This document shows positions 32,647 through 52,662 of a stretch of 52,820 nucleotides of DNA, piece after piece. A model generated the notes under the pieces. That model did no database searches and was not told the origin of the DNA. It saw nothing but the letters and a program-made list of their open reading frames with translations. Both the position numbers and the translations under genes were made by a program. Every line of letters begins with the position of its first letter. The first letter of the stretch is position 1. The DNA is from Nitrospira lenta (GTDB lineage Bacteria > Nitrospirota > Nitrospiria > Nitrospirales > Nitrospiraceae). Location: contig CAMDPZ010000006.1 in NCBI GenBank assembly GCA_945905765.1, positions 1-52,820 on the forward strand, read 5' to 3'.

Positions 32647-33123
32647 ATGCTGTCCAAGGTCAAACAACGCCAGGAGCTCGCCTCGCTGTTGCAGGCTCAC
32701 CGGCAGGCCGGCAAACGCATTGTGTTCACGAACGGCTGCTTCGATCTCATGCATGTAGGCCATACCCGCTATCTCCAGGCCGCGAAAGGCCTGGGCGACC
32801 TCCTGGTCGTGGCAATCAACAGCGACGAGTCTGTTAAAAGTTTAAATAAGGCGCCGGATCGTCCCATCGTCCCGGACACTCAGCGGGCTGAAGTGGTCGC
32901 GGCGCTCGGCGCGGTCGATTATGTTATCCTGTTCAACGAACCGGATCCTCAGAGCCTGATTGCAACATTACAGCCTGACATCCTCGTCAAAGGCGGAGAT
33001 TGGGCGGTGGAACGGATCATCGGCCGCGAAATCGTCGAAGCGCGCGGCGGAGTCGTTCGTACTATTCCCTTGGTCCCGGGCGTTTCTACCACAACACTCA
33101 TCCAACGTATTCGCTCAACCTAG
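32647..33123 (+). CDS. rfaE2: Heptose-1-phosphate adenylyltransferase (HldE C-terminal-type, separate)
   Basis: 158 residues from the ATG at 32647, which has GAGGAGAGG upstream; longer in-frame starts at 32551 and 32614/32617 exist. The nucleotidyltransferase signature TNGCFDLMHVGHTRYL contains the HxGH motif, and VKGGDWAVERIIGRE is the second family motif. Known: transfers AMP to D-glycero-beta-D-manno-heptose 1-phosphate; in E. coli it is fused to a kinase (HldE), here it stands alone. Works with GmhA in ADP-heptose synthesis. The stop codon is TAG at 33121-33123 and is the first three bases of a dispersed inverted-repeat element. Confidence 0.93.
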   Translation: MLSKVKQRQELASLLQAHRQAGKRIVFTNGCFDLMHVGHTRYLQAAKGLGDLLVVAINSDESVKSLNKAPDRPIVPDTQRAEVVAALGAVDYVILFNEPDPQSLIATLQPDILVKGGDWAVERIIGREIVEARGGVVRTIPLVPGVSTTTLIQRIRST

Positions 33124-33255
33124 CAGGATGCTGAAACCGTCCGCCAGCTTCGTTCTCGGCTCATCGAAATCCTCAACGGACCCTCACGGGTACGCCTCCG
33201 GTTTCGACTCGCCTCCGGCCTTGCTGACAAACTGTTTGAGCATCCTGCTCCGTGA
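33121..33255 (+). repeat. TAG-end inverted-repeat element, copy R1 (short form)
   Basis: Begins TAGCAGGATGCTGAAACCGT, which is also the stop of the adenylyltransferase gene, and ends with the near reverse complement (..TTTGAGCATCCTGCT, to 33249). Terminal repeats of about 26 bp agree except for a few positions. It shares CTCGGCTCATCGAAATCCTC and CTCCGGTTTCGACTCGCCT with copies R2 and R3 but lacks about 80 bp of their centre. The frame after TAG is open for 43 codons to TGA at 33253. Confidence 0.85.
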
Positions 33256-33335
33256 TGCTCTTCTTGTATGACTCGATGTCCTGTCGCCCATCAAAAACTG
33301 CCATGAAGAACTAGCTGAGCTCTAACCCGTACACC

Positions 33336-36300
33336 ATGTCCGAAACGATCTCTTCGACATCAGCATCCCAATGGTTCGTGCCTGTCGCTGCGGCATTGAC
33401 TGCCAAGGCAGGCCGCCCCTCTGTCACCGGCTTGCACGGCTCCACGTCCGGCCTCGCCCTCACCACGCTCATGCAGCCTCAGTCGGGCAAACTGGGCAAC
33501 CGGTCCTGGCTGATCGTCACGGGATCGGATGAGGCAGCCGAGCGGCTCTTCGACGATCTGCATTTCTTCCATGACCTCGTCGGGCTTTCGACGGCGCCCC
33601 TCGCCCTCTTCCCGCGATGGGAAACCCTGCCCTACGAGGGCAGCGCTCCCCATGTCAGTCTGATCGCGCGCCGAATGAATACCCTGCATCACATCCGCAC
33701 CGCGCCCCAGACCTACCTGGTCACCTCCATCGCGGCCCTGATGCAACGGCTGTTGCCCGTCGAGGCTTTCACCGGCACCACCCTGCAATTTAAACGGGGC
33801 GGGACGATCGAGCGGGAGGTCCTCACCAGCAGGCTCTTGCGGCTCGGCTACCGCCGGGTCTCGGTGGTGGAAATCCCCGGCGAGTTCAGCATTCGGGGCG
33901 GCATTGTGGATATCTTTTCAACGGCCTATGCCGAGCCGCTGCGTGTCGAATTTCTTGGCGAAACGATCGACTCCCTCCGCCTCTTCGATCCCGCCACGCA
34001 AAAATCCACCGCAAAACTGGATCGCGCAGTGGTCCTGCCTGCACGGGAATATTTACGGGCGGAGGATTCTCCGGATGCCCTCGCTCCCATTCCCGCTGAT
34101 GCAGAATGGCGCGCGCCGGCTCTCTATCCCAACATGGAGAGCCTGTTCGATTATTTTACCGAACAACCTATCCTGGTCCTGGATCAGCCTTCTGCCTTGA
34201 CCGGAGCCTGTGCAGACCTCTGGAGCAAAATCGACGACGGCTACCTCCGCCATGCCGATCGGGAGACCACCGTCCCCTACCCGTCACCGGAACGGTTGTT
34301 TCTTGCCTGGCCGGAACTGATGGAGCATACACAGGGCTGGCCCACCCTCGCACTGGAACCGCTCACCGAAAGCGATGCCTCCTGGAATCCGGTTCAAGCC
34401 TTTCCCGCCCAGGCCCCGGCCAGCGCCGGCCTCGGAGCCCGCGGGATGCCCTTCAGCCAGACCTTGGCCATCATGGATCGCCTACGAGAGGACTGCCGCG
34501 TCGTCCTCGTCGCGAGGAGTCAGGGCCAAGTGGCTCGCTTGCTGGCCCTCTTGCGCGAACACGATGTGCCGGCGATGGAATGGGCCACGGGAACCTGGAC
34601 CGCTTCAAGTAAAACGAAGGCCCCGTTTTACGTCTTGCATGGCGATCTCTCAGCGGGATTTCTCGCGCCGGATTTACGTGTAGCTGTACTGACGGAAGAA
34701 GAACTGTTCGCCAAAGGCGCGCGCCACAAGCCGCAGGCCAAGAGTAAAGCGGCAACCTTCCTCTCCTCCCTGGAAGATCTCAACGTGGGCGACTATGTCG
34801 TCCATGTCCAACATGGCATCGCCCGCTATCAAGGGCTGAAACGCCTCTCCGTGCAGGATTTCGACAGCGATTACTTGATCCTGGAATTCGCCGGCGGCGA
34901 TAAGCTCTACGTGCCGCTGGAGAAGCTCAGCCATGTGCAGCGCTATAGCGGAGCGGAGGGCCATGGGCCGCGCTTAGAACGGCTGGGCGGCACCAGCTGG
35001 GCCAAAACGACCGCGCGCGTCAAGAAAGACATCGAGGAGATGGCGCACGAGCTGGTTGACCTCTATGCCAACCGCGAACTCGTGACGCGCAATGCCTACG
35101 GCTTCGACAGCACCATGTACCACGAGTTCGAAGCCGCCTTTGAATATGAAGAAACGGAAGATCAACTCAAAGCGATCGAAGACATTACCCGCGACATGGA
35201 ATCCAATAAGCCGATGGACCGCCTCGTCTGCGGCGACGTGGGATACGGAAAAACGGAAGTGGCCATGCGAGCCGCCTTCAAGGCGGTGGAAGCCAATCGC
35301 CAGGTGGCGGTGCTCGTCCCCACGACCCTCTTGGCCCACCAACATTACGACAACTTCTCGGAACGGTTCGCGCCCTTCCCGGCTCGCGTGGCCCTCCTCT
35401 CCCGCTTCCAATCGCCGAAAGAAGCCAAGGCCATTCTCAAAGATGTGGCAAACGGCGACGTGGATGTAGTGATCGGCACCCACCGGCTCATCCAGAAGGA
35501 TGTGGTCTTCCGGGACCTGGGGCTCGTGATCATCGACGAGGAGCAATGGTTCGGGGTCAAACATAAGGAACGATTAAAACAACTCCGCACTCAAATCGAT
35601 GTCTTAACCCTCACCGCCACTCCGATTCCCCGCACCTTACAAATGGCCATGGCCAGCGTGCGAGATCTCTCGATCATCGAAACGCCTCCGGCCGGCCGCC
35701 TGGCCATTCGCACCCAGGTCGTCCGATCCAGCGACAAACTGGTTCGGGAAGCGATCTTGCGTGAGCTCGGGCGGGGCGGGCAGGTCTACTTCGTCCATAA
35801 CCGGGTTGAAACGATGGAGAAGACGGGCGCCTGGCTCCACCAACTGGTGCCGGATGCGCGCATCGTGATGGCCCATGGGCAGATGAACGCCAAACCGCTC
35901 GAAGCAGTCATGCTGAAATTCTTTCGCCGGGAGGCGGATATTCTGATCGCCTCGGCCATTATCCAATCGGGCATCGATGTCCCCACGGCCAACACCATCA
36001 TCATCAATCGCGCCGACATGTTCGGCCTCGCGCAGTTGTACCAGCTGCGCGGGCGCGTGGGCCGAAGCGGCGATCAAGCCTACGCCTACTTCCTGGTGCC
36101 GGACGAGGGGCAACTGAGCGAAGATGCCCAAAAGCGCCTCACCGCCATTCAGCAATTCACCGAACTGGGAGCCGGCTTCCGCATTGCCGCAGCCGACATG
36201 GAAATCCGCGGTGCCGGCAACCTCCTGGGAAAACAGCAATCGGGACATATCGCCGCGATCGGACTCGATCTCTACATGCAGATGGTGGAACAGGCCGTCC

Positions 36301-36809
36301 AACGCCTCAAGGGCCAGGTGGTGGAAGAAGAACCGGAGCCGGTGCTCCGGCTCAATATCTCCGCCTTCATCCCGGATGAATATATTGCCGATCCCCACCA
36401 ACGTCTCTCGTTTTATAAACGCCTCTCCTCCTGCGCCCAAGTCGGCGACCTCGCCTTGCTGCATGGCGAAATGCAGGACCGGTACGGAATGGCTCCGGAC
36501 TCCGTCGAACGGCTGTTCGAGGTCATGCAAGTGCGGCTTCAGGCCAAGGCCTTGCGCCTGGCGGCCATCGAGCTCAAAACCCACTCCGTCGTCGTCACGC
36601 TCGACGCCAAGAGCCGGGTCGCCAGCCAGGCGATTCACAAACTGATGGACCGGTACAAGAAGCGGATTTGCTTCCTGTCCCCCCTCGCATTTGAACTCCA
36701 AATGCCGCATCAGGACTGGCCTTCCATCTTTCAAGAACTCACCGCAACCTTGCAAAGCCTGGGAGTCTGTGATACCAACACAACGATGTCCCCGCAATCA
36801 TCTCGCTAA
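33336..36809 (+). CDS. mfd: Transcription-repair coupling factor
   Basis: 1157 residues, normal length. Displaces RNA polymerase stalled at DNA lesions and recruits UvrA. Seen in order: UvrB-homology region (about 1-330, e.g. GYRRVSVVEIPGEFSIRGGI), RNA-polymerase-interaction domain (about 470-540, e.g. GDYVVHVQHGIARYQGL), then the superfamily 2 translocase: Walker A GDVGYGKTEVAMRAAFK with Lys639, the DEEQWFGVKHKERLK box, TATPIPRTLQMA, QLRGRVGRSGDQAYAY and the TRG-type segment EIRGAGNLLGKQQSGHI. The C-terminal domain (about 1000-1140) is present. It is followed after 17 nt by the PPIase gene. Confidence 0.97.
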   Translation: MSETISSTSASQWFVPVAAALTAKAGRPSVTGLHGSTSGLALTTLMQPQSGKLGNRSWLIVTGSDEAAERLFDDLHFFHDLVGLSTAPLALFPRWETLPYEGSAPHVSLIARRMNTLHHIRTAPQTYLVTSIAALMQRLLPVEAFTGTTLQFKRGGTIEREVLTSRLLRLGYRRVSVVEIPGEFSIRGGIVDIFSTAYAEPLRVEFLGETIDSLRLFDPATQKSTAKLDRAVVLPAREYLRAEDSPDALAPIPADAEWRAPALYPNMESLFDYFTEQPILVLDQPSALTGACADLWSKIDDGYLRHADRETTVPYPSPERLFLAWPELMEHTQGWPTLALEPLTESDASWNPVQAFPAQAPASAGLGARGMPFSQTLAIMDRLREDCRVVLVARSQGQVARLLALLREHDVPAMEWATGTWTASSKTKAPFYVLHGDLSAGFLAPDLRVAVLTEEELFAKGARHKPQAKSKAATFLSSLEDLNVGDYVVHVQHGIARYQGLKRLSVQDFDSDYLILEFAGGDKLYVPLEKLSHVQRYSGAEGHGPRLERLGGTSWAKTTARVKKDIEEMAHELVDLYANRELVTRNAYGFDSTMYHEFEAAFEYEETEDQLKAIEDITRDMESNKPMDRLVCGDVGYGKTEVAMRAAFKAVEANRQVAVLVPTTLLAHQHYDNFSERFAPFPARVALLSRFQSPKEAKAILKDVANGDVDVVIGTHRLIQKDVVFRDLGLVIIDEEQWFGVKHKERLKQLRTQIDVLTLTATPIPRTLQMAMASVRDLSIIETPPAGRLAIRTQVVRSSDKLVREAILRELGRGGQVYFVHNRVETMEKTGAWLHQLVPDARIVMAHGQMNAKPLEAVMLKFFRREADILIASAIIQSGIDVPTANTIIINRADMFGLAQLYQLRGRVGRSGDQAYAYFLVPDEGQLSEDAQKRLTAIQQFTELGAGFRIAAADMEIRGAGNLLGKQQSGHIAAIGLDLYMQMVEQAVQRLKGQVVEEEPEPVLRLNISAFIPDEYIADPHQRLSFYKRLSSCAQVGDLALLHGEMQDRYGMAPDSVERLFEVMQVRLQAKALRLAAIELKTHSVVVTLDAKSRVASQAIHKLMDRYKKRICFLSPLAFELQMPHQDWPSIFQELTATLQSLGVCDTNTTMSPQSSR

Positions 36810-36826
36810 CAAGGTTTCACGCACTT

Positions 36827-37732
36827 ATGACTATGACTCGACCATCCAACGCTTCCAGAAACTTCGTCACCCTCCGTGTTCTCGCCATGCTGTCCTGCGT
36901 CATCGGAGGCAGCCTCCTGTCGCTCACCGGCTGCACGCCACCGCCGGAAGAAGGCGTGGTCGCCCTCGTCAACGGCCGGCAGATCACGCAGAACGAATTC
37001 GAAGCCCGCTGGGAAGAACTATCCGACGCCACCAGGTCCCGGTACGAGAAGGAAGGGGGGAAACGCCGTTTCCTCGACGAGCTCATCACACGCGAACTGC
37101 TGATGCAGGAAGCGCGTAAGCAGGGCATCGATCAGAACGACACCGTCCGGGATCGGACCCAGCGCTATCGGGAACAGTTGATTCTCGACGAGCTTCTCAG
37201 GAGCCTGGTCAAAACCAAGATCGACCTCTCGGACGAAGAACTGGACGCCTTTTACGCGAAACATGCCCACGAGCTCCTGACCGCCTTGAAGGTGCGAGTG
37301 TCCCAAATGCTGCTCCCCAGCCTTCCCGCCGCGAAGGATGTCGAGGCGCAGATCAACCGGGGCGGAGACTTTGCCAAATTTGCGCAGCGCTATTCCCTCG
37401 ACATCAAAACGAAACTCAAGGGGGGAGATCTCGGCCCCTACCACAAGAATTTAGTCATCCCGGAGGTCGACGCGGTCCTGCAAACCCTCAAGCCTGGAAC
37501 GGTCAGTGCCCCGATCAAAACGGAGGCCGACTATTACCTCGTCATGGTCACGGCCCTCGACACGGAAATGATCCAGGCGGATTTAGCCATCCGGGAGCGC
37601 CTCCGGCAGGAACTGCTCAACGAAAAACGCCGAAAGCGGTTTGACGACGCGCTCGTGGACATCCGCGCGAAAGCCACCATCCGCCTGGCCGACGCCTCCC
37701 GCTATGTCGCCGACGACATCGGCGCCCGCTGA
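36827..37732 (+). CDS. PpiC-type peptidyl-prolyl isomerase lipoprotein
   Basis: 301 residues. Signal peptide with lipobox LTGC at about residues 33-36, then PPPEEG. A SurA/PrsA-like N-terminal chaperone part (VALVNGRQITQNEFEARW) is followed by a parvulin domain at about 150-250 (VRVSQMLLPSL, GGDFAKFAQRYSLD, GGDLGPYHK). Known: such lipoproteins assist folding of secreted or outer-membrane proteins. Directly after mfd and before a second isomerase gene, it likely forms an envelope-folding pair. Some parvulin active-site residues are hard to place by eye, so catalytic activity is not certain. Confidence 0.88.
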   Translation: MTMTRPSNASRNFVTLRVLAMLSCVIGGSLLSLTGCTPPPEEGVVALVNGRQITQNEFEARWEELSDATRSRYEKEGGKRRFLDELITRELLMQEARKQGIDQNDTVRDRTQRYREQLILDELLRSLVKTKIDLSDEELDAFYAKHAHELLTALKVRVSQMLLPSLPAAKDVEAQINRGGDFAKFAQRYSLDIKTKLKGGDLGPYHKNLVIPEVDAVLQTLKPGTVSAPIKTEADYYLVMVTALDTEMIQADLAIRERLRQELLNEKRRKRFDDALVDIRAKATIRLADASRYVADDIGAR

Positions 37733-37833
37733 TCCGGCGGCTGGCAACCTCTAACTCATACTCCTCAAGCCATCCGCAATTCGTGTACAATCCCTCGAAC
37801 CCTCATCGGCAGCCGGGCGCGAGACTCAAAGCC

Positions 37834-38862
37834 ATGATCATGCACCGTCCCTTCATCACGATGCCTCCGTCCCGATTGCACCGCGCGGTCCTCTTCGCGC
37901 TGGCGCTGCTCGCGCCGGCCTCTCTGCTTTCGGCCGCGCAGGTGCAAGACCGGATCGTCGCGATCGTCAACTCGGACCTCATCATGCAGTCCGATATGAA
38001 ACGGGAACTGGCCCCTGAACGGGAACGGATTCAAAAGGAATATCGCGGCGAGGCCCTCGCGCACCGGCTCAGAACGGTGGAATACATGGCGCTGACCTCG
38101 ATGATCGAGCGCAAACTCCAGCTCCAGGAAGCCAAGGCCAAAGGGATCGAGGTCTCAGACCAGGAGGTCCGGCAGGCGCTTCAGCAGATGAAGCAGCAGG
38201 GGGAAAAGATCGACGAGACGAATCCGGCCAACCTCAAAAATGTCCGGGAACAGCTGATCCTGCTCAAAGTCGTCGACCGGGAAGTGCGAAGCGGGGTCAT
38301 GGTCGCGGACTCCGACATCAAACGCTACTTTCAGGAACACCATGACCGGTTCGCGCTCCCGGAGGAATATACCCTCAGCCAGATTCTCCTCAAGCCCCGG
38401 TCCCCTGACGATACGTCCGACGCCAAAGCCAAAGCGGCCGAGATCACAGCCCTGCTCAAACGGGGGGAGCCCTTCGAAGATCTGGCATTGCATTTTTCTG
38501 ACGGGCCCAACGCCTCACGAGGCGGGCGTCTGGGATTGGTGCGGCAGGGAGAACTCTTGCCCGGCATCGAACGGGCCATCACGAAGCTCGTGCCAGGCGG
38601 CATCTCGGATACGATCGAAACCTCAGAGGGATTCCATATCGTGCGTCTGGAGGACAAACAGCCCAAACAATTCAGGCCGTACGAGGAAGTGCGCGCGGAG
38701 ATCCAGGGACTCGTCTTTCAGCAGAAAAGCGAGGACGTCTTTCAGGCTTGGCTGGCAGAGCTCAAAAACAAAGCCTATATCGAGATCAAGTTCGAATCCG
38801 CTCCTTCAGGGCCGCCCACAACCGGTCCCGCCCCTCGCCCGTCGTCGACGAGTAAGGAATAG
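37834..38862 (+). CDS. SurA-like periplasmic peptidyl-prolyl isomerase
   Basis: 342 residues from the ATG at 37834; an in-frame GTG at 37783 and ATGs at 37840 and 37861 are alternatives, and no start has a clear ribosome-binding site. A TACAAT stretch at 37785 might be part of a promoter. Signal peptide (LFALALLAPASLLSA), SurA N-terminal domain (VQDRIVAIVNSDLIMQSD), one parvulin domain (about 215-310: YTLSQILLKPRS, GGRLGLVRQGELLPGIE, TSEGFHIVRLEDKQ) and a Pro/Ser/Thr-rich tail. Known: SurA-type chaperones escort outer-membrane proteins. Its last 77 nt overlap the convergent engB gene. Confidence 0.9.
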   Translation: MIMHRPFITMPPSRLHRAVLFALALLAPASLLSAAQVQDRIVAIVNSDLIMQSDMKRELAPERERIQKEYRGEALAHRLRTVEYMALTSMIERKLQLQEAKAKGIEVSDQEVRQALQQMKQQGEKIDETNPANLKNVREQLILLKVVDREVRSGVMVADSDIKRYFQEHHDRFALPEEYTLSQILLKPRSPDDTSDAKAKAAEITALLKRGEPFEDLALHFSDGPNASRGGRLGLVRQGELLPGIERAITKLVPGGISDTIETSEGFHIVRLEDKQPKQFRPYEEVRAEIQGLVFQQKSEDVFQAWLAELKNKAYIEIKFESAPSGPPTTGPAPRPSSTSKE

Positions 38863-39382
38863 CCTCCTCGGTCAATCCCAACCCTTCGTGCAGCCGGCGC
38901 AGCGTCTTGATGCGCTCGCTCATTTTCAGTTTATCGACTTTTGTCGCCACCACGATGGGCGGACGTCCGACTGACAACAGCCAGGCGATCGTCTCCCGGT
39001 CCTGTTCGCTCACCACCCGGCTTTCCACCAGAACCACCACCGCGCGCAATTGTTCGCTGCCGTCGAGATACTGTTCGATTAACGGCGCCCATTCAGCCCG
39101 CAGCGACTTCGAGACCCTCGCATAGCCATAACCAGGCAAATCCACCAACACGAATCGCGCCAATCCTGGATCGTCGCTGGTGATGCGAAAAAGATTGACC
39201 AGACGAGTCTTGCCAGGCGTGCGACTGACTTTGGCCAGCCCCCTGCGCTGCAAAAGCGAATTGATGAGCGAGGACTTGCCGACGTTCGACCGCCCGATGA
39301 AGGCGACTTCCGGAAGATCGCCTTGCAGAAACTGTTCTGGCCCTGCACAACTTCTGATAAACTCTGCCGTGAGAATTTTCAT
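38786..39382 (-). CDS. engB: Ribosome-biogenesis GTP-binding protein EngB (YihA/YsxC)
   Basis: 198 residues. G1 GRSNVGKSS at about 31-39, G3 VDLPGYGYARVSK, G4 TKVDKL and the C-terminal SSTTGEGRDRLW. Known: essential GTPase for large ribosomal subunit assembly. The 3' end overlaps that of the SurA-like gene by 77 nt; the overlapping part encodes the last about 25 residues of EngB, including the conserved SSTTGEGRDRLW, and the Pro/Ser-rich tail of the other protein, so EngB is the constrained partner. Confidence 0.95.
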   Translation of the reverse strand: MKILTAEFIRSCAGPEQFLQGDLPEVAFIGRSNVGKSSLINSLLQRRGLAKVSRTPGKTRLVNLFRITSDDPGLARFVLVDLPGYGYARVSKSLRAEWAPLIEQYLDGSEQLRAVVVLVESRVVSEQDRETIAWLLSVGRPPIVVATKVDKLKMSERIKTLRRLHEGLGLTEEAIPYSSTTGEGRDRLWAALKERIRT

Positions 39383-39456
39383 GCCCTACCCATTCACCGA
39401 TCAGACACCATGTTATTGACACGACCACACATCATCTCTGTGATACGCAGCCTCTA

Positions 39457-40185
39457 ATGCGGAAGTCAACCACCCACTCCCGCTCCCGCGTGAAGGCCTT
39501 CCTGATCATCGGCCTCGGCCTCCCGATCGGCGCGCTCCTCTTCGTGTGGCTGCTCACCATGCCAGACGTCTCGTCCTTGCGCAGGACCAATCCGCCTGTG
39601 ACAGCCCTGATGACCGCGCGCCAGGCCCAGGCTGAGGCGCAGGGTCTCACGGTCGGACGCCATTGGATCTGGGTGCCCCTCGCGCGGATCTCCCCGCACC
39701 TCCGGCAGGCGGTCGTGGCGGCGGAAGACGCCTCATTCTTCACGCATGAAGGATTCGACTGGGAAGGCATCAAAGAAGCAGCCAAGTACAACCTCGAGGC
39801 GGGCGAACTGAAGCGGGGCGGAAGCACCATTACCCAACAGCTGGCCAAAAATCTCTATCTCTCGTCCGAACGGTCCCTGTTTCGAAAAGCGCGGGAAGCC
39901 CTGATCACGCGCTCGCTCGAACATCAACTCACCAAGGCGCGGATCCTCGAGCTCTATCTCAACGTCGCGGAATGGGGACAGGGCGTCTACGGCGCTGAAG
40001 CGGCGGCCCGCCATCACTTCCAGAAGTCCTCACAGGACCTGACAGCCGATGAGGCAGCCTGGCTGGCCGCTATCTTACCCTCGCCGCGCCGATACGATCC
40101 GATCAGAAAAACCATGGCCCTGACTCGCAGACACGATCGCATCCTGAGCCTGATCACTCGGAAGCACAGCCATCCAGTTCCGTAA
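39457..40185 (+). CDS. mtgA: Monofunctional peptidoglycan glycosyltransferase
   Basis: 242 residues. One N-terminal membrane anchor (about 13-34), then a GT51 domain: VVAAEDASFFTHEGFDWEGI with catalytic Glu90, GGSTITQQLAKNLYLS, and the RKAREALITRSLEHQLTKARILELYLN core (given in parts), ending with AAWLAAILPSPRRYDP. Known: polymerises lipid II glycan chains. No transpeptidase domain follows, so it is the monofunctional type. MurJ, the lipid II flippase, is encoded 2 kb away on the other strand. Confidence 0.95.
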   Translation: MRKSTTHSRSRVKAFLIIGLGLPIGALLFVWLLTMPDVSSLRRTNPPVTALMTARQAQAEAQGLTVGRHWIWVPLARISPHLRQAVVAAEDASFFTHEGFDWEGIKEAAKYNLEAGELKRGGSTITQQLAKNLYLSSERSLFRKAREALITRSLEHQLTKARILELYLNVAEWGQGVYGAEAAARHHFQKSSQDLTADEAAWLAAILPSPRRYDPIRKTMALTRRHDRILSLITRKHSHPVP

Positions 40186-40241
40186 CGCCTCAACGATCTC
40201 CCTGCCCCGGTCGTACGGAACGGCCCGGTCAGGCGAATCTT

Positions 40242-41171: not shown

Positions 41172-41734
41172 TTGAGGAGAAGGTCCCGAACCTGCCGGTA
41201 CGCCGGATCTCTCATCCGGTCCAAATCGGACCGCACGAACCCCAACCCGGTGACGCAAAGTTCGAAGTTGTCGGAGAGTGTCCGGAACAGAGGCGTTTCC
41301 TCCCCTGACGGATTGTCCTCCATTTGCGCGACAATCCCGTAGGAACGCTTGCCTGTCTTCATATAGTCCACGAGAAAATCCTTATGGTAGATCAGCCCGC
41401 TCGTCTTGAGTCGGCGCAGATATTCCGGGAATAGCCCCGCCATGAAGAGCGTGAAATCGCCGATATGCTGATGCACATCCCGCTCACGCTCCATCGACTG
41501 GGCCCCCAGCAAGACTTCCGATTCAAACAAAAGATCCACCACCGTATCGACCGGCCGGTCTTCCTGGTTTCTGATTTTATAGAGCTGATCGGTATGGGTA
41601 AAGTCGACAAGCAGGTTGGAGACGTAGCTGGTGACGTTGGGGTCGGGCCACCCGAGATGCTCCGTAAAGCTCTTCTCGGTCAGGGCGCCGAACAACTGAC
41701 GAAGCGGATGCCGTGGCGAAACTTGCGTTCCCAT
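41168..41734 (-). CDS. Conserved-looking soluble protein, unknown function
   Basis: 188 residues from the ATG at 41734, preceded by GAGAGGTGG; an in-frame ATG 15 nt upstream lacks a site. No signal peptide or membrane segment. Mostly helical, with FGALTEKSFTEHLGW near the start, SNLLVDFTHTDQLYKI, and IGDFTLFMAGLFPEYLRR in the middle; several Asp/His/Glu residues are spaced as in a helical bundle, but no known motif is recognised. Its stop overlaps the asparaginase start, so the two are translationally coupled. Confidence 0.8.
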   Translation of the reverse strand: MGTQVSPRHPLRQLFGALTEKSFTEHLGWPDPNVTSYVSNLLVDFTHTDQLYKIRNQEDRPVDTVVDLLFESEVLLGAQSMERERDVHQHIGDFTLFMAGLFPEYLRRLKTSGLIYHKDFLVDYMKTGKRSYGIVAQMEDNPSGEETPLFRTLSDNFELCVTGLGFVRSDLDRMRDPAYRQVRDLLLN

Positions 41735-43999: not shown

Positions 44000-44048
44000 G
44001 GGTCGGGATTCTAGCGGAACCACGTCAGGCAGTCTATCGAACCGAACA

Positions 44049-45574: not shown

Positions 45575-45611
45575 ATTAAACCCCAGCTGAGCAGGATACG
45601 AAAAGCTCTGC

Positions 45612-45826
45612 GCAGGATGCTCAAAAAGCCTGTCCGGCAAGGCCGCAGGAGAGTCGAAACCGGAGGAGGTACCGACCGCACTTTGTGTGGCCGTTCGCCA
45701 GTACAATGGATCTTGGCGAACGGAAAAGCCCCTCCAGTACTTCCGACCTCCGATAACTTCAATCGGTACGTTGAGGATTTCGATGAGCCGAGAACGACGC
45801 TGGCAGGCTTTTTCAGCATCCTGCTA
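45612..45826 (-). repeat. TAG-end inverted-repeat element, copy R2 (long form)
   Basis: Read on the minus strand it begins TAGCAGGATGCTGAAAAAGC at 45826, the stop codon of lemA, and ends with the near reverse complement of that end at 45612. The centre is almost identical to R3 and contains a perfect 10-bp hairpin (CCGTTCGCCA/TGGCGAACGG). It lies between lemA and the first TPM gene, inside a cluster that is normally continuous. Confidence 0.88.
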
Positions 45827-46423
45827 GAATTTTACCTCTGGCGGCTTGGCCACGGCCTTCTCATCCGCCACGGTGAAATTCGGCCTCTCTTCCAGGTGGA
45901 GCAAAAATTTGGCCGTCAGGTTTGTGGGGAAATAACGAACGCCCTTGTTGTACTCCGCCACTTTCTCGATATACCGCTTGCGCGCGACAGCGATGCGATT
46001 CTCCGTCCCTTCGAGTTGGCTTTGGAGATCGCGGAAATTCTGGTCTGCTTTCAAATTCGGATAATTCTCCGCAATCGCGATGAGACGGCCTAACGATGAG
46101 GTGAGACCGGCTTGCGCCTTTTGGAATTGCTCGAACGCGGCAGGATCTTTCAACGTGTCAGGCGTCACTTGAATTCCGGTCGCCTGAGCGCGCGCCTGCA
46201 CTACTCCTTCGAGCGTATCCTTTTCATGCTCTGCATAGCCCTTGACTGTGGCCACCAAGTTCGGGATCAAATCGGCCCGCCGCTGATACTGATTGACCAC
46301 TTCGCTCCAGGCGGCCTTCGTGTCTTCGTCTAATCCCTGAAGATCGTTGTAGCCGCAGCCCGTGAGGCCTATGAATAGAGCTGCAATGGCGATGGTGGCG
46401 AATACTGTGATGCGACGGCTCAT
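45824..46423 (-). CDS. lemA: LemA family lipoprotein
   Basis: 199 residues. Signal with lipobox LTGC (Cys23), then the LemA helical bundle: LDEDTKAAWSEVVNQYQRRA, DLIPNLVATVKGYAEHEKD, AIAENYPNLKADQNFRDLQ and QLEGTENRIAVARKRY, ending in KPPEVKF, which is the family's normal end. So the TAG stop at 45824-45826, which is the edge of repeat R2, does not truncate the protein. Known: LemA proteins have a short N-terminal membrane anchor (here lipid) and a long coiled coil; role in envelope stress is suspected but unclear. Confidence 0.93.
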   Translation of the reverse strand: MSRRITVFATIAIAALFIGLTGCGYNDLQGLDEDTKAAWSEVVNQYQRRADLIPNLVATVKGYAEHEKDTLEGVVQARAQATGIQVTPDTLKDPAAFEQFQKAQAGLTSSLGRLIAIAENYPNLKADQNFRDLQSQLEGTENRIAVARKRYIEKVAEYNKGVRYFPTNLTAKFLLHLEERPNFTVADEKAVAKPPEVKF

Positions 46424-46522
46424 AGGGGAGTCCTCCTTCGGCGTGCCTGCGCGGTCTTTAGCGCAGGATAATGCTCATGCTATCATGAGAATTGCCATTA
46501 TGATACGAAGGTGGAACGTCCG

Positions 46523-46828
46523 ATGTCGCTTGAACCCTCTTCACATTTGCCCGGCGGATTTCAGATCCGGCACCGCCTCCTCGGCATCTACCAGGGGAGT
46601 GCCATCGAGCTGGCCTTTTGGCACCCCTCATCCGGGATGCCGGAACATGGCCTCTGCCGGTTCACCACGAAGGAGAAAGCCGAATCCTATCGCGCCTATC
46701 TCTGCTCCCCCACCTGCCCGGAACCGCTCGATGAGCAAGACCTCGCCATTGAACCCTATGACCTCGCCACCCACGAGGAGCTGATCAACGAACATCCGCT
46801 ACACTCGGCCTGGGAAACTCCCCTGTAG
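46523..46828 (+). CDS. Small soluble protein, unknown function
   Basis: 101 residues from the ATG at 46523, with GAAGGTGG 8 nt upstream; a GTG at 46511 is less likely. Unrecognised. Contains SSHLPGGFQIRHRLLGIYQG, a possible beta strand pair (IELAFWHPSSG), two Cys residues close together (YLCSPTCPEP) and an acidic C-terminal half (DEQDLAIEPYDLATHEEL). No signal peptide. Divergent from lemA. The stop codon TAG (46826-46828) is the first three bases of repeat R3. Confidence 0.65.
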   Translation: MSLEPSSHLPGGFQIRHRLLGIYQGSAIELAFWHPSSGMPEHGLCRFTTKEKAESYRAYLCSPTCPEPLDEQDLAIEPYDLATHEELINEHPLHSAWETPL

Positions 46829-47040
46829 CAGGCTGTTGAAACCGTCCGCCAACGTCGTTCTCGGCTCATCGAAATCCTCAACGTACCGATTGAAGTTATC
46901 GGAGGTCGGAAGTACTGGAGGGGCTTTTCCGTTCGCCAAGATCCATTGTACTGGCGAACGGCCACGCAAAGTGCGGTCGGTACCTCCTCCGGTTTCGACT
47001 CGCCTGCGGCCTTGCTGGGCGAACTGTTTGAACAGCCTGG
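46826..47040 (+). repeat. TAG-end inverted-repeat element, copy R3 (long form)
   Basis: Begins TAGCAGGCTGTTGAAACCGT, the stop of the preceding gene, and ends ..GTTTGAACAGCCTGG. The centre differs from R2 at very few positions, while the outer ends differ from R2 in a matched way at both ends. It is about 1 kb from R2 and in opposite orientation, so the pair flanks lemA and the 46523 gene as an inverted repeat. The frame after TAG is open for 83 codons to TAA at 47078. Confidence 0.88.
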
Positions 47041-47098
47041 TGACGGCGATGACCGTTCGCGACCGTTTAAACTCTGCTAAAAATACAAATTCGGTCGC

Positions 47099-47614
47099 TT
47101 AGGCGGCAACCGTGGTGTTGAACGAGGATTTACTCGAAGGATCGACGTGGGCTTGGGCAAAGGCTAACAGGCGTTTATTCTCTTGGGCGCCTCGCAGAAA
47201 CTTGAACCCGATGCCGCGAGCGCTGACAGAGCGAACGATCGCGGCGACTTCAAGAGGCTGCTCCCCTTCGCCAAGCGACAATTGCAGATAGAAGATATCG
47301 TCCGTATGGACCTGGGTCTCGCTTTTGATGACACAGCCACCCATCGACAGATCGAGCACCGTTCCCTCACCGCGAACCTTGCCCCCGGAAAACGAGAGAT
47401 AGAGTCGCACAGGAATTCGGAGGTGCTGGCGACGATCGATCGGATGAGTCGAATGGTCCAGCCAGAGACGGGACGCCAGAAAGCGGTGGCTGCATGCTGG
47501 ACAGCGAAATGGCGACACGAAGAGAAGGGAGGCGAGATACTCCCGTAGCGATTGCAAATGAGACCGCAAAACGCCTTCCTTCTGACACCGTGGGCAACTG
47601 AGCGTATGACCCAT
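47099..47614 (-). CDS. PilZ-domain protein with N-terminal zinc-ribbon-like region
   Basis: 171 residues from the ATG at 47614 (GAGGGCAGGGG upstream); a GTG at 47677 is an alternative. Residues 1-50 hold CPRC and CPAC pairs about 30 residues apart, likely a zinc-binding site. A PilZ domain follows: RRQHLRIPVRLYLSF with the Arg-rich c-di-GMP motif (RRxxxR) and DLSMGGC for the D/NxSxxG motif. Both are intact. Known: PilZ domains bind c-di-GMP and control motility, adhesion or secretion. Inference: a cytoplasmic c-di-GMP effector; its output is unknown. Confidence 0.85.
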   Translation of the reverse strand: MGHTLSCPRCQKEGVLRSHLQSLREYLASLLFVSPFRCPACSHRFLASRLWLDHSTHPIDRRQHLRIPVRLYLSFSGGKVRGEGTVLDLSMGGCVIKSETQVHTDDIFYLQLSLGEGEQPLEVAAIVRSVSARGIGFKFLRGAQENKRLLAFAQAHVDPSSKSSFNTTVAA

Positions 47615-47752
47615 CTTCCCCTGCCCTCTCGTTCCCCTGCTCGACCCGACCGATGGACCGAGCTCGTTCCTCTCCACGGATAGACGATCGCCTTCTTTCT
47701 GTCAAGAAAACGAGAGTTCCCTGCACAGCCTTTGTGAAAATAAACCGGTTAC

Positions 47753-49048
47753 TCATCGACGAGCCTCACCATCGGCACGCATACTTACAGAAACAGCCTT
47801 ACCCGCAAGCCATCCGGTGGCCCAGGCCCATTGAAAGTTAAATCCCCCGATGCGGCCGTCGCAATCGAGAATTTCTCCCGCCAGATAGAGACCCGGCACG
47901 AGCTTCGACTCCATCGTGCGAAAGTTAATTTCCTCCAGGGGCACTCCGCCCGCCGTGACTTCCGCGTAGTTCCATCCCCGATCCTGTTGCACGGGAAGCC
48001 GGAACTTTGTGAGCGCCGCCAACAGCCGGTCCCGATCCTTCCGCGGCAGTTGGGCCATGGCCGTCTGTCCGCTGATCCCCAGATATCGGCAGAGGGATTC
48101 GGCAAATCGCTCCGTAACCAAATGCGCCAGGGTCTTGGTCAACGAACGGCGAGGCGACCCTGCCGCTTGCTTCATGAACCACTGGCGGGCTGCCTCCTGG
48201 GTCAGGGCCGGCAGAAAGTTCACGCACAGATCAACCGGCTCGCCCTTTTCATGAGCGCTCGTCCAGAAGCGGCTGGCATCCATGACGACGGGGCCGCTGA
48301 TCCCGAAATGGGTCCAGAGCAAACTGCCGGTCCGCCGATCCACGATCTGGCCCTGCACCGTCGTCGTCAGCTCCACTTCCTGTGAAATGCCTGAGAGATC
48401 CTTGTGAAACACAGTCTCGTCCAGCACTAACGGGGTGAGGGCCGGAGCGGTGGCGTGCACGTGATGGCCCAGGCGGCGAGCCAACTCATAGCCGAACCCG
48501 TCACTCCCCGTTTTCGGAAGCGAACGGCCGCCGGTGGCCAGAATGATTTTCTTCGCCTGCGTGACTCCCTGGGTATGGTGAATGAGGAAGCCACCCTCTG
48601 AGCCGGCGAGACAGGCAACCTCTGCCACTCGATGGTCCGGACGGATGACCACACCCAACTCCTGGCAACGATTGACGAGCGCCGTTAAAACCGTTCGCGC
48701 CTTGTCGGTCACAGGGAAAAGCTTGCCGGTCTCTTCGCACTTGAGGTCCACGCCCAAGGAGGCGAACCAGTCGATCGTGGCCTGAACCGGAAAGGCGGCC
48801 AAGACATTCTTGATGATATGGCGATTACCGAAGAAGTCGGTGGCGGTCACGACATCATGCGTGACATTGCAGCGACCGCCGCCGGAGACGAGGATCTTGG
48901 CGCCGAGGGTCTTGGCCCCATCGAGCAGCAGGATCCTCAGCGACAGCCCCTCTTTCGCGGCGGCCTCTGCTGTGAAAATCGAAGCGGCGAGCCCTGCGGC
49001 ACCCGCACCGATCACCGCAATATCGTGTCTGTCATTACCCATGGACAT
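47753..49048 (-). CDS. HI0933-like/BaiN-type flavoprotein
   Basis: 431 residues. FAD-binding Rossmann motif VIGAGAAGLAAS (Gly14, Gly16, Gly19), LVSGGGRCNVTHD, the second nucleotide segment ATGGRSLPKTGSDGFGYELA, and C-terminal GLYLAGEILDCDGRIGGFNF followed by QWAWATGWLAG. Known: NAD(P)/FAD-dependent oxidoreductases of this family are widespread; substrates mostly unknown, a few reduce unsaturated bile acids or similar compounds. Single gene, convergent with nothing close; ends 76 nt from the PilZ gene's upstream frame. Activity is inferred from intact motifs. Confidence 0.9.
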   Translation of the reverse strand: MSMGNDRHDIAVIGAGAAGLAASIFTAEAAAKEGLSLRILLLDGAKTLGAKILVSGGGRCNVTHDVVTATDFFGNRHIIKNVLAAFPVQATIDWFASLGVDLKCEETGKLFPVTDKARTVLTALVNRCQELGVVIRPDHRVAEVACLAGSEGGFLIHHTQGVTQAKKIILATGGRSLPKTGSDGFGYELARRLGHHVHATAPALTPLVLDETVFHKDLSGISQEVELTTTVQGQIVDRRTGSLLWTHFGISGPVVMDASRFWTSAHEKGEPVDLCVNFLPALTQEAARQWFMKQAAGSPRRSLTKTLAHLVTERFAESLCRYLGISGQTAMAQLPRKDRDRLLAALTKFRLPVQQDRGWNYAEVTAGGVPLEEINFRTMESKLVPGLYLAGEILDCDGRIGGFNFQWAWATGWLAGKAVSVSMRADGEARR

Positions 49049-49157
49049 TAGAGAGTTTTAACTGCCAGTTAACACCCTATTAATCTTGCAATGCTACAGT
49101 TTGCCCCTCAAAGACGACCAATGACGCGGAAACATATGACAGCAGGAGGGACGCAGC

Positions 49158-49328
49158 GTGACCTGTCAAAAATGCAGCGGGCTGATGGTGAAGGAATCGC
49201 GACCGGATTTCTCGCAGGATGTGGCCGTGCTCCGCTGTATCAATTGCGGCCTGGTCATCGATCCGTTGATTGCGCAGAATCGCGTGGCCCTGTCGCGCGC
49301 GAAACAGCCGACCCTCAATGCGGCTTGA
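49158..49328 (+). CDS. 56-residue zinc-ribbon protein
   Basis: Starts with GTG at 49158, preceded by AGGAGGG with 7 nt spacing, a very good ribosome-binding site. Product begins TCQKCSGLMVKES and later has VLRCINCGLVIDPLI: two CxxC pairs about 25 residues apart, which form one zinc-ribbon site. The tail is basic (QNRVALSRAKQP). Known: such tiny ribbons are common small regulators or RNA/DNA-binding proteins, with no fixed function. Convergent with exonuclease III. Confidence 0.7.
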   Translation: MTCQKCSGLMVKESRPDFSQDVAVLRCINCGLVIDPLIAQNRVALSRAKQPTLNAA

Positions 49329-49443
49329 TGATTCGTTCGAGATCGTGAGCCAGTTCGGTCGGGGCGGGCAGCTTGCCGAACCGATCGAACGGGGGCAGGT
49401 GTGGACGTTGCGCTCGTGGTTAGATCGAAAACTCCGCCCATAA
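49318..49443 (+). CDS. Possible 41-residue ORF overlapping two genes
   Basis: ATG at 49318 inside the end of the zinc-ribbon gene; open to TAA at 49441. It overlaps the zinc-ribbon stop by 11 nt and exonuclease III by 24 nt. Product has LDDSFEIVSQFG and WTLRSWLDRKLRP. No Shine-Dalgarno sequence. The opposite strand also looks protein-like here, so I give low weight to either. Confidence 0.15.
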   Translation: MRLDDSFEIVSQFGRGGQLAEPIERGQVWTLRSWLDRKLRP

Positions 49444-50193
49444 GAATGTATGATCCGAGGGGTCTTTCGCTCGCCGCGGCTCGACGTCCACCTCTACCCT
49501 GACACAACGCTCGACTAGCGGGGCCGTCGCCAAAATATGGTCGATGCGCCAGCCGCGATTCGCTTCCAACGACGCCGGCGCCCGGTAATCCCAAAACGTA
49601 TATTGCTGCCGATCCGGATAGAGCTTCACGAACACATCCTGAAATCCCCAGGCCAGCGTCTTCTCGTAGGCCCGCCGCGCATCTTCGTGATAGCAGACAT
49701 GCTTGAGATGTTTCTCGGGGCTGTGCACATCCATCGGCCGTGGCGCCACGTTCATATCCCCGCACCAGATGGCCGGCTTGTCCGGCGATAAATGTTTCTC
49801 GAAATACTTGCGGAGCCGATCGTACCAGCCAAGCTTGTACTGATACTTGGGGGAATCGATCTCGAAACCCTGCGGCACGTAGGTATTGACGATGGGAATC
49901 CCCTTGATCACCACGCGCAAGAGCCGCGCGTCCTCCGAATCGCCTCCGTCGTCGAACCCGTACGCCACCGCCTCCGGTTTCTCCCGGCTCAAGATCGCCA
50001 CACCGTTGTACGACTTCATGCCCCGGTAAGTGACCTCGTACCCTGACTCAGCCAAGGCCAGCAGAGGAAACTCGCTGTCCTGGACTTTGGTTTCCTGAAG
50101 GCAGAGCACATCGGGCTTCTGCTGAGCCAGCCAGTCGAGCACAATGGGCAAACGTTTGCGGAGCGAATTGACGTTGAACGTCGCGATTTTCAT
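49420..50193 (-). CDS. xth: Exodeoxyribonuclease III
   Basis: 257 residues from the ATG at 50193 (family start MKIATFNVNSLRKRLP). EEP-fold motifs: LQETKVQD with the metal Glu, GDMNVAP with Asn, WRIDHILAT and SDHTFLWAEF with the catalytic Asp-His. Known: AP endonuclease and 3'-exonuclease in base excision repair. Catalytic residues all present. Length normal. The frame is open for a further 33 codons after its TAA stop. Confidence 0.95.
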   Translation of the reverse strand: MKIATFNVNSLRKRLPIVLDWLAQQKPDVLCLQETKVQDSEFPLLALAESGYEVTYRGMKSYNGVAILSREKPEAVAYGFDDGGDSEDARLLRVVIKGIPIVNTYVPQGFEIDSPKYQYKLGWYDRLRKYFEKHLSPDKPAIWCGDMNVAPRPMDVHSPEKHLKHVCYHEDARRAYEKTLAWGFQDVFVKLYPDRQQYTFWDYRAPASLEANRGWRIDHILATAPLVERCVRVEVDVEPRRAKDPSDHTFLWAEFSI

Positions 50194-50274
50194 AGAGCAT
50201 CCTACAGACAATCAGGCCGCGCATCCTAGCAAAAGGCCTGCGGGGGAACAAGGCGGAGAGGGAGCCACTCCACA

Positions 50275-50311
50275 TAAAACGGCCCTCGGAAGGGAAAACC
50301 TCCCGAGGGCC
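50275..50311 (-). terminator. Intrinsic terminator after the Lys/Ala-rich gene
   Basis: On the minus strand the stem GGCCCTCGG/CCGAGGGCC with a 13-nt loop is followed by GTTTTA. It begins about 21 nt after the stop of the minus-strand gene at 50332. Strong stem, short U-run. Confidence 0.7.
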
Positions 50312-50331
50312 ATGCGCACAACTGCTCGACC

Positions 50332-50640
50332 TTAGTGCCCTGCTGCGGGGGCCGGGACTGCGGCCGGGGCAACGGCAGGTGCCGGAGCCGATGGAGCCGC
50401 GGCAGGCGCTTCTTCTTTTTGCGCCTTCGTTTTGCCCTTCGCCGCATGGCGCTTGGCCTTCATCTGCTTTTTCTGGCCCTTCTTCTTGCCCTTCGAATCG
50501 GATTTCCCCGACTCTTTTTCGGCTGCAACATCGGACTTCGTCGTCTCCGTCTCGCCTTTGACTGCCTCATCGGCCATGACCAGCGAGCCGGCTCCGAACA
50601 TGCACAATACAGTCAAAGCGGCAACGATCAACTTCTGCAT
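50332..50640 (-). CDS. Secreted Lys/Ala/Pro-rich low-complexity protein
   Basis: 102 residues from the ATG at 50640, preceded by AGGAGG at good spacing. Signal peptide (LIVAALTVLCMFGAGSLVMA). The mature part has an acidic-basic stretch (DVAAEKESGKSDSKGKKKGQ), a strongly basic block (KKQMKAKRHAAKGKTKAQ) and an Ala/Pro-rich end (APAAAPSAPAPAVAPAAVPA). Likely unfolded in the periplasm; may bind anionic polymers such as cell wall or DNA. Function unknown. It has its own terminator, so it is a single-gene unit. Confidence 0.75.
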   Translation of the reverse strand: MQKLIVAALTVLCMFGAGSLVMADEAVKGETETTKSDVAAEKESGKSDSKGKKKGQKKQMKAKRHAAKGKTKAQKEEAPAAAPSAPAPAVAPAAVPAPAAGH

Positions 50641-50864
50641 GGAATACCTCCTGGAAAATAATAGTGAGCGCAGTTTGTTTCCTGCAAAGAGAGCGAACAG
50701 CCTGCACTCCTTTTCCCGCTCTGTCAAGAACCGGCGAAGGAAACCGCCGCCCAGCAACGACCTGAGGTGATCTGACGAAAAATCTGTCGCCCCGGCTCAA
50801 GTTTCCCCCCTCAACCGACCGATAACGGACGTCAGGGCATAGAAGGACTTGTGGGGGAAACAGG

Positions 50865-52379
50865 ATGACGCAAGCAGGCACCTCGATCACGAACTCTGAC
50901 GTCATTAACGAGATTCACGAGCAGCTTCGCCCGCTCTTCGATCCCCAAGCCAATTCAATCCCCGTCTTGCGGGCGACCTGCCAAAAAATTCTCAACATCA
51001 GCGGAGACACCTCGAGCCCCGATGCCCTCGCAGAAGTCGTCAGCCGCGACCCAGGCTTGACCTGCAAGGTGCTGCAGATCGCCAACGGGATCGCCTATAG
51101 CCCGCAACATACGATTACATCCGTCACGCACGCCGTGGCCTGGCTTGGCCTGGATACCGTCCGCACCCTCGTCGCCACCGTCCAATTGATGGAGCAGCTG
51201 GAGAATCAGCCGGACCGACGGCCGCTCCTGGGCCGCTTGATCGCCAAGGCGCTGTTCTCGGCGGCGCATGCCTCAGAACTCGGCCTGGCCATGAGCTATC
51301 CTCAGCCGGGGCAGCTGTTCAGCGCCGCCCTCCTCTACTCCTTCGCCGACTTGGTCATCGCGTACCAGACTCCCGATCTGTTTCAAGAGCTCATCGCAGC
51401 AAAGACTCAGGACGAGGAAATAAAAATTCTGGGTGTGTCGAGGGTTCGTTTCGCCACAGCCCTGGCCAAGACCTGGGTCTTGCCGGCCGGCCTGATGGAT
51501 CTCATTGGCAGCCCGGCCCCTACGGCAAAAACAAAATGGCAAACCGACCAGCAGCTGTTCATGGGCCTGGTAACCGGCTCCAACCATCTCGTCGCCGCCA
51601 TGGCTGACGCGCCGAATCCCGGCGCCGCCGACCCCATTCGTCGCACGGTCCAACGGGGCACCGCCCTGCCGGAACGCACCCTGCAAGACGCCTTAACCCG
51701 CGCCTTCGACAAGGGCCGGCAACTGTCCCGCTCCGTCGGGATCACCGAGACCGTGATCTCCCAGGCGTCAGCCCCGGCGGCGCTCACCGTAACGTTGTCC
51801 CCAACGATCAATCCGGAATTGGCCAAGGAGCAAGCGGATGGACCGAAAGCAGCTCCTCCGATCCAAACCCGCCCGCTGGAAACCCTTCAGCAGTTCCAGA
51901 CCTCCTTGATGGCGGCGAAAGATCTCAACAATCTTCTCTCCGTCCTGGTCAATACGTTGCATGAAGGCGGCGGCTTTACGCGGGTGGCCCTGGCGTTGCT
52001 GAATCCAGGCGATACCGACCAACTACTCGGGCGGGTAGTCGTGGGCGTCGACGTGCCGGAGCGCTACCTGGCCAGCTTCACGGGATCGCTTAGCGCGGAG
52101 CACCCGCTGTTTCTGCATGCGCTCAAACAACAAGACCCATTCTTGCTCTCGCAAGTCTCGACCGACGGACCGCGCGCCCTCGGCGCCAGGTTCCTCACGA
52201 CCTGGCAAACCTCCTCTGCCATCCTCGCCCCCATCCGCATCGGCATCAGGCCGATCGGACTCCTCTACAGCGACCATGGGCCCCTCCCCGGTCAAGTCAC
52301 CCCTCAGGATCTGCAATCGCTCCAGCTCTTCTTTGGCCAAGCGATTCTCAGCCTCAACCGGCTCGCCGGCGTGCTCTAA
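50865..52379 (+). CDS. HDOD-domain protein with C-terminal GAF domain
   Basis: 504 residues. HDOD domain at about 20-260: SIPVLRATCQKILNISGDTS, VVSRDPGLTCKVLQIANG, TITSVTHAVAWLGLDTVRTL. A linker rich in Ala/Pro (about 280-320) leads to a GAF domain (about 335-500: LNNLLSVLVNTLHEGGGFTR, SSAILAPIRIGIRPIGLLYS). HDOD is related to HD domains but lacks the full metal site. Known: HDOD-GAF proteins link sensing to second-messenger or secretion/motility control. GGGGGAAACAGG precedes the ATG. Confidence 0.9.
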   Translation: MTQAGTSITNSDVINEIHEQLRPLFDPQANSIPVLRATCQKILNISGDTSSPDALAEVVSRDPGLTCKVLQIANGIAYSPQHTITSVTHAVAWLGLDTVRTLVATVQLMEQLENQPDRRPLLGRLIAKALFSAAHASELGLAMSYPQPGQLFSAALLYSFADLVIAYQTPDLFQELIAAKTQDEEIKILGVSRVRFATALAKTWVLPAGLMDLIGSPAPTAKTKWQTDQQLFMGLVTGSNHLVAAMADAPNPGAADPIRRTVQRGTALPERTLQDALTRAFDKGRQLSRSVGITETVISQASAPAALTVTLSPTINPELAKEQADGPKAAPPIQTRPLETLQQFQTSLMAAKDLNNLLSVLVNTLHEGGGFTRVALALLNPGDTDQLLGRVVVGVDVPERYLASFTGSLSAEHPLFLHALKQQDPFLLSQVSTDGPRALGARFLTTWQTSSAILAPIRIGIRPIGLLYSDHGPLPGQVTPQDLQSLQLFFGQAILSLNRLAGVL

Positions 52380-52473
52380 CCGATCTGCTGCGTGAAACGT
52401 GAGACGAAGGTCAACCGAGAGGATGCGGCCCCGCTTGCGGAACGGCATATCTTAAAAGGGAGAACAGGCTCCC

Positions 52474-52662
52474 GCAGGCTGCTCAAACGGTCCGGCAGCA
52501 AGAAAACCTGGACGGCTCTCCATGTTTGCTCGGGCACGTTCCTCTACAATGGCCCGGGGAAAGCCCCCACTGCGCGCGTCCAACGAGGCCCTTCCGAGGG
52601 CGCGCGTTGCGCGAGCACAGGGGACTCACCGGGCCATCCCTCCCTGTTTCAGCAGCCTGCTA
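52474..52662 (-). repeat. TAG-end inverted-repeat element, copy R4, with REP-like core
   Basis: Read on the minus strand it begins TAGCAGGCTGCTGAAACAGG at 52662, which is the stop of the partial gene to its right, and ends with GTTTGAGCAGCCTGC at 52474. The centre is unrelated to R1-R3 and instead contains the GCGCGCGTTGCGCGAGCACA core (52600-52619) of the REP-like family. The frame after TAG is open for 58 codons to TGA at 52483-52485. Confidence 0.75.

Follow-up and report, generated by a model that had tools for sequence, protein, structure and literature searches.

How does a gene come to end on the very bases that border a repeated element? The question is raised by four copies of a repeat in a stretch of 52,820 nucleotides from Nitrospira lenta (assembly GCA_945905765.1, contig CAMDPZ010000006.1), called the window below. 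In all four a TAG abuts the CAGG of the repeat, in frame with the neighbouring gene. Three of these TAGs are the stops of called genes with good or modest coding scores, and the fourth is plausibly another, in a frame cut by the window edge. A sequence-only reading of the window took the element to supply the stop codon. We find that the TAG is the left copy of a duplicated target of sequence YTAR (pyrimidine-T-A-purine), because the true right end of the element carries a second YTAR copy. Judged by its sequence, the repeat is a non-autonomous miniature inverted-repeat transposable element (MITE) of Nitrospira, about 200 bp long when complete and related to the IS5 family of insertion sequences (ISs).

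The layout of the complete element is YTAR, CAGGATGCTGAAAAAG, a long imperfect hairpin, an internal inverted copy of the left end, a tail of about 75 nt ending in AGTTTTTCCGCAGCCTG, and YTAR again. We call the left end the G-end and the inverted copy the C-end. The C-end was considered as the right end of the element and rejected, being internal; the true right end lies about 75 nt beyond it in complete copies, where it is flanked by the second YTAR. Comparison of filled sites with orthologous empty ones yielded clean junctions at which the target is repeated. The insert extends some 80–90 nt past the C-end and includes a second copy of the stop tetranucleotide, which is CTCATTAA on both sides at locus C2_72206, CTAA at C18, CTAG at C49_10041 and TAG only at C33. 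At C2_72206 and C33 the empty and filled sites differ by the insert at the junction alone. At C55_3220 the insert extends just 7 nt past the C-end, and in several other comparisons the right flank could not be used.

How general is this arrangement? An exact search with the right end hit 44 places across four other genomes, of which 42 were examined (40 fetched stretches and two IS loci). They provided 33 two-ended copies of 151–337 bp, 10 of them 197–201 bp long, and 14 of the 33 have identical 4-bp flanks (CTAG, TTAG, CTAA and once CTGA, counted by hand). At locus L272 of genome G013 a complete copy has CTGA on both sides, a TGA stop used as target. A second set was drawn from named genomes by an exact 25-mer of the left end, regardless of stops; it comprises at least 113 stretches with 114 left ends, five further matches too near an edge having been dropped. 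The 80 titles among the listed matches are all Nitrospira, Nitrospiraceae, Nitrospirae or Nitrospirota. A right end was recognised in 69 of the 114 copies, 39 of these being 195–203 bp long, in a search that allowed five substitutions, so that some may be chance. The 4-bp flanks are identical in 23 of the 69, whereas 1000 shuffles gave 12.0 on average and never more than 21; in a 51-copy subset the flanks agree in at least three of four positions in 35. The left-end search was exact in the named set and fuzzy in the 33-copy set. Two loci are common to these sets and none is shared with the loci of the window's own genome, as compared for 80 of the 113 named loci.

The duplication bears directly on what kind of element this is. 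The repetitive extragenic palindromic (REP) elements and REPINs, moved by their associated tyrosine transposases (RAYTs), are genome-wide extragenic hairpins, and the Nitrospira element resembles them in this. When its hairpin alone is viewed, with its length, its conserved G:G mismatch and a tetranucleotide on one side only, it could pass for a single-strand REP/RAYT or IS200/IS605-type element with its target on the left. Yet the matching 4-bp duplication stands at the true right end, the hairpin is longer than in REP elements, and an IS with the right end of the MITE encodes a DDE (IS5) transposase, although no search was made for a Y1 gene. The one-sided target was rejected once the true right end had been found with its duplication, and we give an origin of this kind a negligible chance.

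The association with stops extends far beyond the window. The genome to which it belongs, 90% complete, has in 2.33 Mb the exact left end (CAGGMTGYTGAAA) at 71 places and the inner end (CAGGMTGYTCAAA) at 69. These copies were picked by an exact match to 13 nt of the left end, which misses decayed ones; a one-mismatch search for both types of end counted 268. At least one G-end is present in 40 of the 41 genomes searched, which were this genome, 24 of the same genus (3 to 200 G-ends each) and 16 others of the same order (0 to 19). On contigs C47, C50, C57, C84, C90, C91 and C99 the first 650 bases contain left ends, which may mean that the assembly breaks at the repeat; copy numbers are therefore probably lower bounds.

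Genes were called around the 71 G-ends and 69 C-ends with a home-made codon-usage caller trained on the fetched stretches, contig C6 being represented by the window itself. A sense stop lies directly before the G-end in 32 of the 71, compared with 0.18 expected from random noncoding positions, so that the adjacency seen in four copies holds when the left ends are listed genome-wide. TAG is the commonest of these stops (25), as the window had suggested, and it is not the only one, since TAA (6) and TGA (1) also occur. For the remaining G-ends the stop is 1–3 nt before the end in 10, 4–16 nt in eight, further away in five and beyond the boundary in one; 15 have no sense gene, three of these no called gene at all. 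A stop adjoins just one of the 69 C-ends. In the named genomes 41 of the 114 left ends are directly at a stop, and 49 lack a sense stop over a distance of 400 nt. Four left ends on contig C55 (L084; 1115, 3220, 4908 and 11141) point in the same direction within about 10 kb, each 0–1 nt past a called stop. The sequence-only reading held that the other end never carries the stop of a neighbour; this rested on the internal C-end and does not survive the true right end, which lies at stops less often than the left end but does so in three of the 33 right-end-ascertained copies and eight of the 69 in the named set.

The left tetranucleotides of the 71 copies include CTAG in 15, TTAG in 11, CTAA in five and TTAA in two. 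They resemble the listed targets of IS5, for which a passage of PMC5493358 gives PyTAPu as the consensus; of 24 ISfinder cases 15 have CTAG. CTAG sites in the fetched stretches of this genome number 22 at sense stops, about 88 in intergenic DNA and about 92 in coding sequence.

Does the element supply the stop? Ends of orthologues were examined in six relatives for 26 genes with the element directly behind the stop (103 rows). An element-free relative exists for 24 of them, and in 21 of these 24 it ends at the same codon, with the same trinucleotide in 12. The detector applied to the relatives was loose (up to four mismatches) and scored as filled some sites with no evident element, such as C49_10041 in genome G001; the counts of element-free relatives are thus conservative. 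Since element-free relatives end at the same codon, the stop normally predates the element, and the element usually does not supply it. The opposite possibility, that the element carries a TAG which replaces the end of the gene it hits, could draw on the preponderance of TAG, on three of the 24 genes at which no element-free relative ends at the same codon (the shift being 1, 2 or 14 codons), and on C13_38239, C21 and C49_2865, where element-free relatives have TGA and the filled site TAG. Against it stand the unchanged stop positions, the TAA or TGA that directly precedes the element in seven of 32 cases, and the recurrence of the tetranucleotide at the right end. The right junction of C49_2865 fits a target that a one-base indel had turned into TAG beforehand. 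Random truncation would moreover often read into the element, whereas the stop lies beyond the boundary in just one of 71. We have therefore rejected an element-borne TAG on the empty sites and the TAA and TGA cases, and regard it as very improbable.

Two of the genes in the window were compared with relatives in this respect. LemA was compared between this genome and 13 relatives (87–97% identity), drawn from 21 genomes with a LemA-like match once two short matches and those of less than 40% identity across most of the protein had been dropped. The site is filled in three relatives (G001, G003 and G009); where it has no element, the gene ends in TAG in two (G005 and G008) and in AAC TGA in eight. 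The claim that the lemA product ends normally for its family holds for the five of 13 close orthologues that stop at the same codon, while it is one codon shorter than the other eight. The same claim for the heptose adenylyltransferase needs correction: in the four relatives read, the gene runs on for two more codons and stops with TAA. In G001 one copy of the element lies after TGA.

A candidate parent for the MITE is found within the genus. Of 25 genus genomes 12 have matches to DDE_Tnp_1, 35 in all, and 30 of these loci were scanned for element ends. In G014 there is an IS of layout CTAG, CAGGCTGCGGAAAAACC...AGTTTTTCCGCAGCCTG, CTAG around a 366-aa transposase that scores 280.6 bits with the NCBIfam IS5 model NF033581 (cut-off 140). 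The right end of the MITE is identical to that of the ISs in L260 and L265, and the left end is similar. G008 has a close homologue (86% identical) and a distant one (53%), and weaker matches bring the total to seven of the 25 genomes. Further ISs with similar ends (CAGGCTGTTGACAAAC or near) are located in L247 (814-2192, G023), L256 and L254. Three of four ISs exceed the IS5 cut-off (280.6, 267.4 and 236.5 bits); the fourth and more distant, L247, is below the cut-offs of both IS5 and IS1182.

The parent transposase also matches the IS1182 model, at 182 bits, but this is below the cut-off of 270. IS1182 and IS1272 elements differ from the MITE in replacing a palindrome, and IS1272 copies are reported 3–66 bp behind genes (PMC5678879). 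Palindrome removal was not seen at the clean junctions; palindrome replacement was rejected by the 4-bp target duplications and by the insert-only differences at C2_72206 and C33. With the IS5 family, represented by IS5 of E. coli, the element shares 4-bp duplications, mostly CTAG, CTAA and TTAG, and a parent transposase above the family cut-off. Unlike IS5 the element of the window has no transposase, and has an internal inverted copy that gives it a hairpin of about 120–210 nt and a position at gene stops in 32 of 71 cases. IS5 in E. coli is described in part of PMC11677980 as biased to intergenic, AT-rich and stress-induced duplex destabilization (SIDD) regions. Like other bacterial MITEs, such as QMITE of Coxiella and HqIRS of Haloquadratum, the element is short and has terminal repeats and a target length in common with an IS. 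A section of PMC5896051 describes a C-terminus supplied by a MITE and, in one strain, a stop just before the MITE; that section does not report a stop-codon position across the family. Within a literature searched by title and start of abstract, with subscription papers and preprints outside its scope, no paper among the hits listed deals with a stop-codon-positioned IS5-type MITE or with this repeat. It is a new family of IS5-type MITE, a known kind of element in an unusual stop-codon niche.

We consider it highly probable that the repeats are explained by an IS5-type MITE with a YTAR target that lands on stops. An IS5-type transposase acting in trans would cut a 4-bp YTAR site and duplicate it. 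The duplications and the empty sites are observed; presence and absence among relatives attest past insertion only, and the act of transposition itself we infer. A pyrimidine followed by a TAG or TAA stop is such a site. Insertion there would be neutral for the protein, because the left copy remains as the intact stop of the gene and the 3′ untranslated region alone is displaced. Insertions elsewhere would mostly strike coding sequence or promoters and be lost. At stops the left YTAR would be held by selection while other flanks decay, and the apparent share of stops would then rise with age. Copies with the hairpin facing the gene are commoner, probably as the stem makes a harmless or useful 3′ end or terminator. 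The proposal that insertion is targeted at TAG or CTAG stops was thus largely right, save that the target is YTAR, duplicated, and includes pyrimidine plus TAA as well as TAG.

Several observations weigh against this explanation. YTAR-flanked left ends lie at sense stops in 25 of 33 cases in this genome and 36 of 73 in the named set, where 11% is expected from random YTAR sites of this genome, noncoding or at stops and in random orientation. Within 100 nt behind genes there are 88 YTAR sites at stops and 80 beyond, so that 52% would be expected at stops; of the YTAR-flanked copies in this interval 25 of 27 in this genome and 36 of 45 in the named set are exactly there. Of the 32 left ends at stops, seven are not flanked by YTAR. 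A right end of the consensus GAGTTTTTCCGCAGCCTG was recognised past just 21 of 69 C-ends of this genome, some perhaps by chance. The three genes whose element-free relatives all end elsewhere, and the three sites with TGA when free and TAG when filled, belong here too. A close parent IS is present in two of the 25 genus genomes only, and no match was found in the window's genome, itself only 90% complete, or in G001; a passage of PMC3119063 on MITEs states that the IS with a functional transposase may be absent from the host genome.

Since the hits on stops exceed the availability of YTAR, selection, preservation of flanks or a real preference for stops must add to it. Could insertion recognise the stop itself, or the 3′ end of a translated mRNA, beyond YTAR? 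The crowding of nearby copies exactly on the stop would favour this, and so would the bias in orientation, for the left end is at a stop more often than the right (11 compared with 3 of 33 in the right-end set, two-sided binomial 0.057; 23 compared with 8 of 69 in the named set). But the 49 of 114 copies with no sense stop within 400 nt do not fit, and a stop keeps its YTAR by selection, which biases the counts, chiefly in a genome in which no parent transposase was found. We know of no mechanism for the direct recognition of stops at insertion, and hold it to be improbable. The YTAR-targeted MITE, with loss of harmful insertions and flank preservation added, remains our preferred reading. The features of the copies in the window are listed in Table 1.

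Table 1. Repeat copies in the window and the genes that end at them.
Feature	Position	Strand	Remarks
Copy 1, left target-site copy CTAG	33120..33123	+	Contains TAG 33121-33123, where the heptose adenylyltransferase-like gene stops
Heptose adenylyltransferase-like gene	32614-33123 (as called)		Pfam CTP_transf_like
Copy 1, left end (G-end) to internal inverted copy (C-end)	33124..33247	+	124 nt hairpin
Copy 2, left target-site copy CTAG	45824..45827	-	TAG 45824-45826 is the lemA stop
lemA	45824-46423	-	Pfam LemA match reaching the last residue
Copy 2, G-end to C-end	45613..45823	-	211 nt hairpin
Copy 2, likely decayed right end GAGCTTTTCGTATCCTG	45588..45608	-	Next to it CTCA, the decayed right copy of the target
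Copy 3, left flank GTAG	46825..46828	+	Contains TAG 46826-46828, where the small gene stops
Small gene ending at copy 3 (the 46523 gene of the sequence-only reading)	46547-46828 (as called)		No Pfam family; modest coding score of 18
Copy 3, G-end to C-end	46829..47039	+	211 nt
Copy 4, left target-site copy TTAG	52660..52663	-	An open frame ends at TAG 52660-52662
Copy 4, G-end to C-end	52475..52659	-	185 nt; inner sequence unlike the other copies

The likely right end of copy 2 differs from the consensus by three substitutions and one indel, and for copies 1 and 4 no right end was recognised beyond the C-end. The open frame before copy 4 has 53 codons including the stop and is cut by the right edge of the window at 52820; a gene ending there is plausible from the sequence. 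Copies 2 and 3 flank lemA and the small gene, and with their TAGs (45613-45826 and 46826-47039) they are two inverted 214-nt copies, 999 nt apart and 92% complementary. They have extra inner sequence in common that copy 1 does not have. The inner sequence varies elsewhere too: in the copies of L032, L060 and L066 the left end is followed by a GTGGGAT motif, which resembles a GGGATGG stretch of copy 4; the hairpin loop looks as though it could be exchanged. An Rfam search of 32500-52820 gave a single match, to CRISPR-DR10 and below threshold, within an mfd-like gene (33336-36809).

The G-end and C-end together form a long stem. Copy 1 folds with −53.8 kcal/mol (z = −5.3), copy 2 with −94.9 kcal/mol (z = −6.1) and the whole of copy 4 with −102.9 kcal/mol (z = −5.0); a partial fold of copy 4 gave z = +0.5. 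Among 33 copies of one size class 97.5% of the cells of the consensus structure pair. Fourteen of the 34 pairs are changed on both sides, a number reached in none of 500 shuffles, and the count of further pair types was equalled in four of 500; this alignment was also the source of the structure, and these values may owe something to subfamilies or to conversion from arm to arm. At C1_43912 CAGGCTG/CAGCCTG corresponds to CAGGATG/CATCCTG in G001, a candidate for compensatory change in place. By counts summed by hand, the hairpin has diverged less than the tail between orthologous copies: 42 of 1116 compared with 59 of 572 positions in nine rows judged to hold the same insert, a set that counts C83 in three relatives and in which the tail may include flanking DNA, and 219 of 2121 compared with 181 of 1157 in all 18 measurable rows of 27. 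In many copies an inner stem is followed by a run of about five Ts on either strand, and because stem and T run are present on both strands we infer a possible role as terminator. A terminator scan confined to loops of 3–8 listed none of the four hairpins of the window.

The strong covariation, the lower divergence of the hairpin than of the tail and the bias in orientation suggest that elements may be kept because they sit at mRNA 3′ ends, as the sequence-only reading had offered as a second possibility. Tentatively, this could be taken further. The MITE family might constitute a standing stock of gene 3′ ends in Nitrospira, domesticated as stop-adjacent and possibly bidirectional terminators or as stabilisers of mRNA 3′ ends. 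Landing on YTAR stops would then be costless, one orientation would be retained, and the stem would be kept by compensatory change while the rest decays. We think such domestication possible, though rather unlikely.

Our analysis indicates that a simple target preference could make stop codons a safe harbour for a transposon, since the duplication leaves the stop intact. In one genome 32 called genes have an insert at the first base past the stop, and the length of the protein is unchanged in most of the cases that could be tested. It also carries a caution, that one-sided adjacency to stops should not be equated with stops supplied by the element until its true ends are known. Should the hairpins indeed serve as 3′ ends, Nitrospira would offer a natural setting in which to test the remodelling of transcription termination by transposons throughout a genus.

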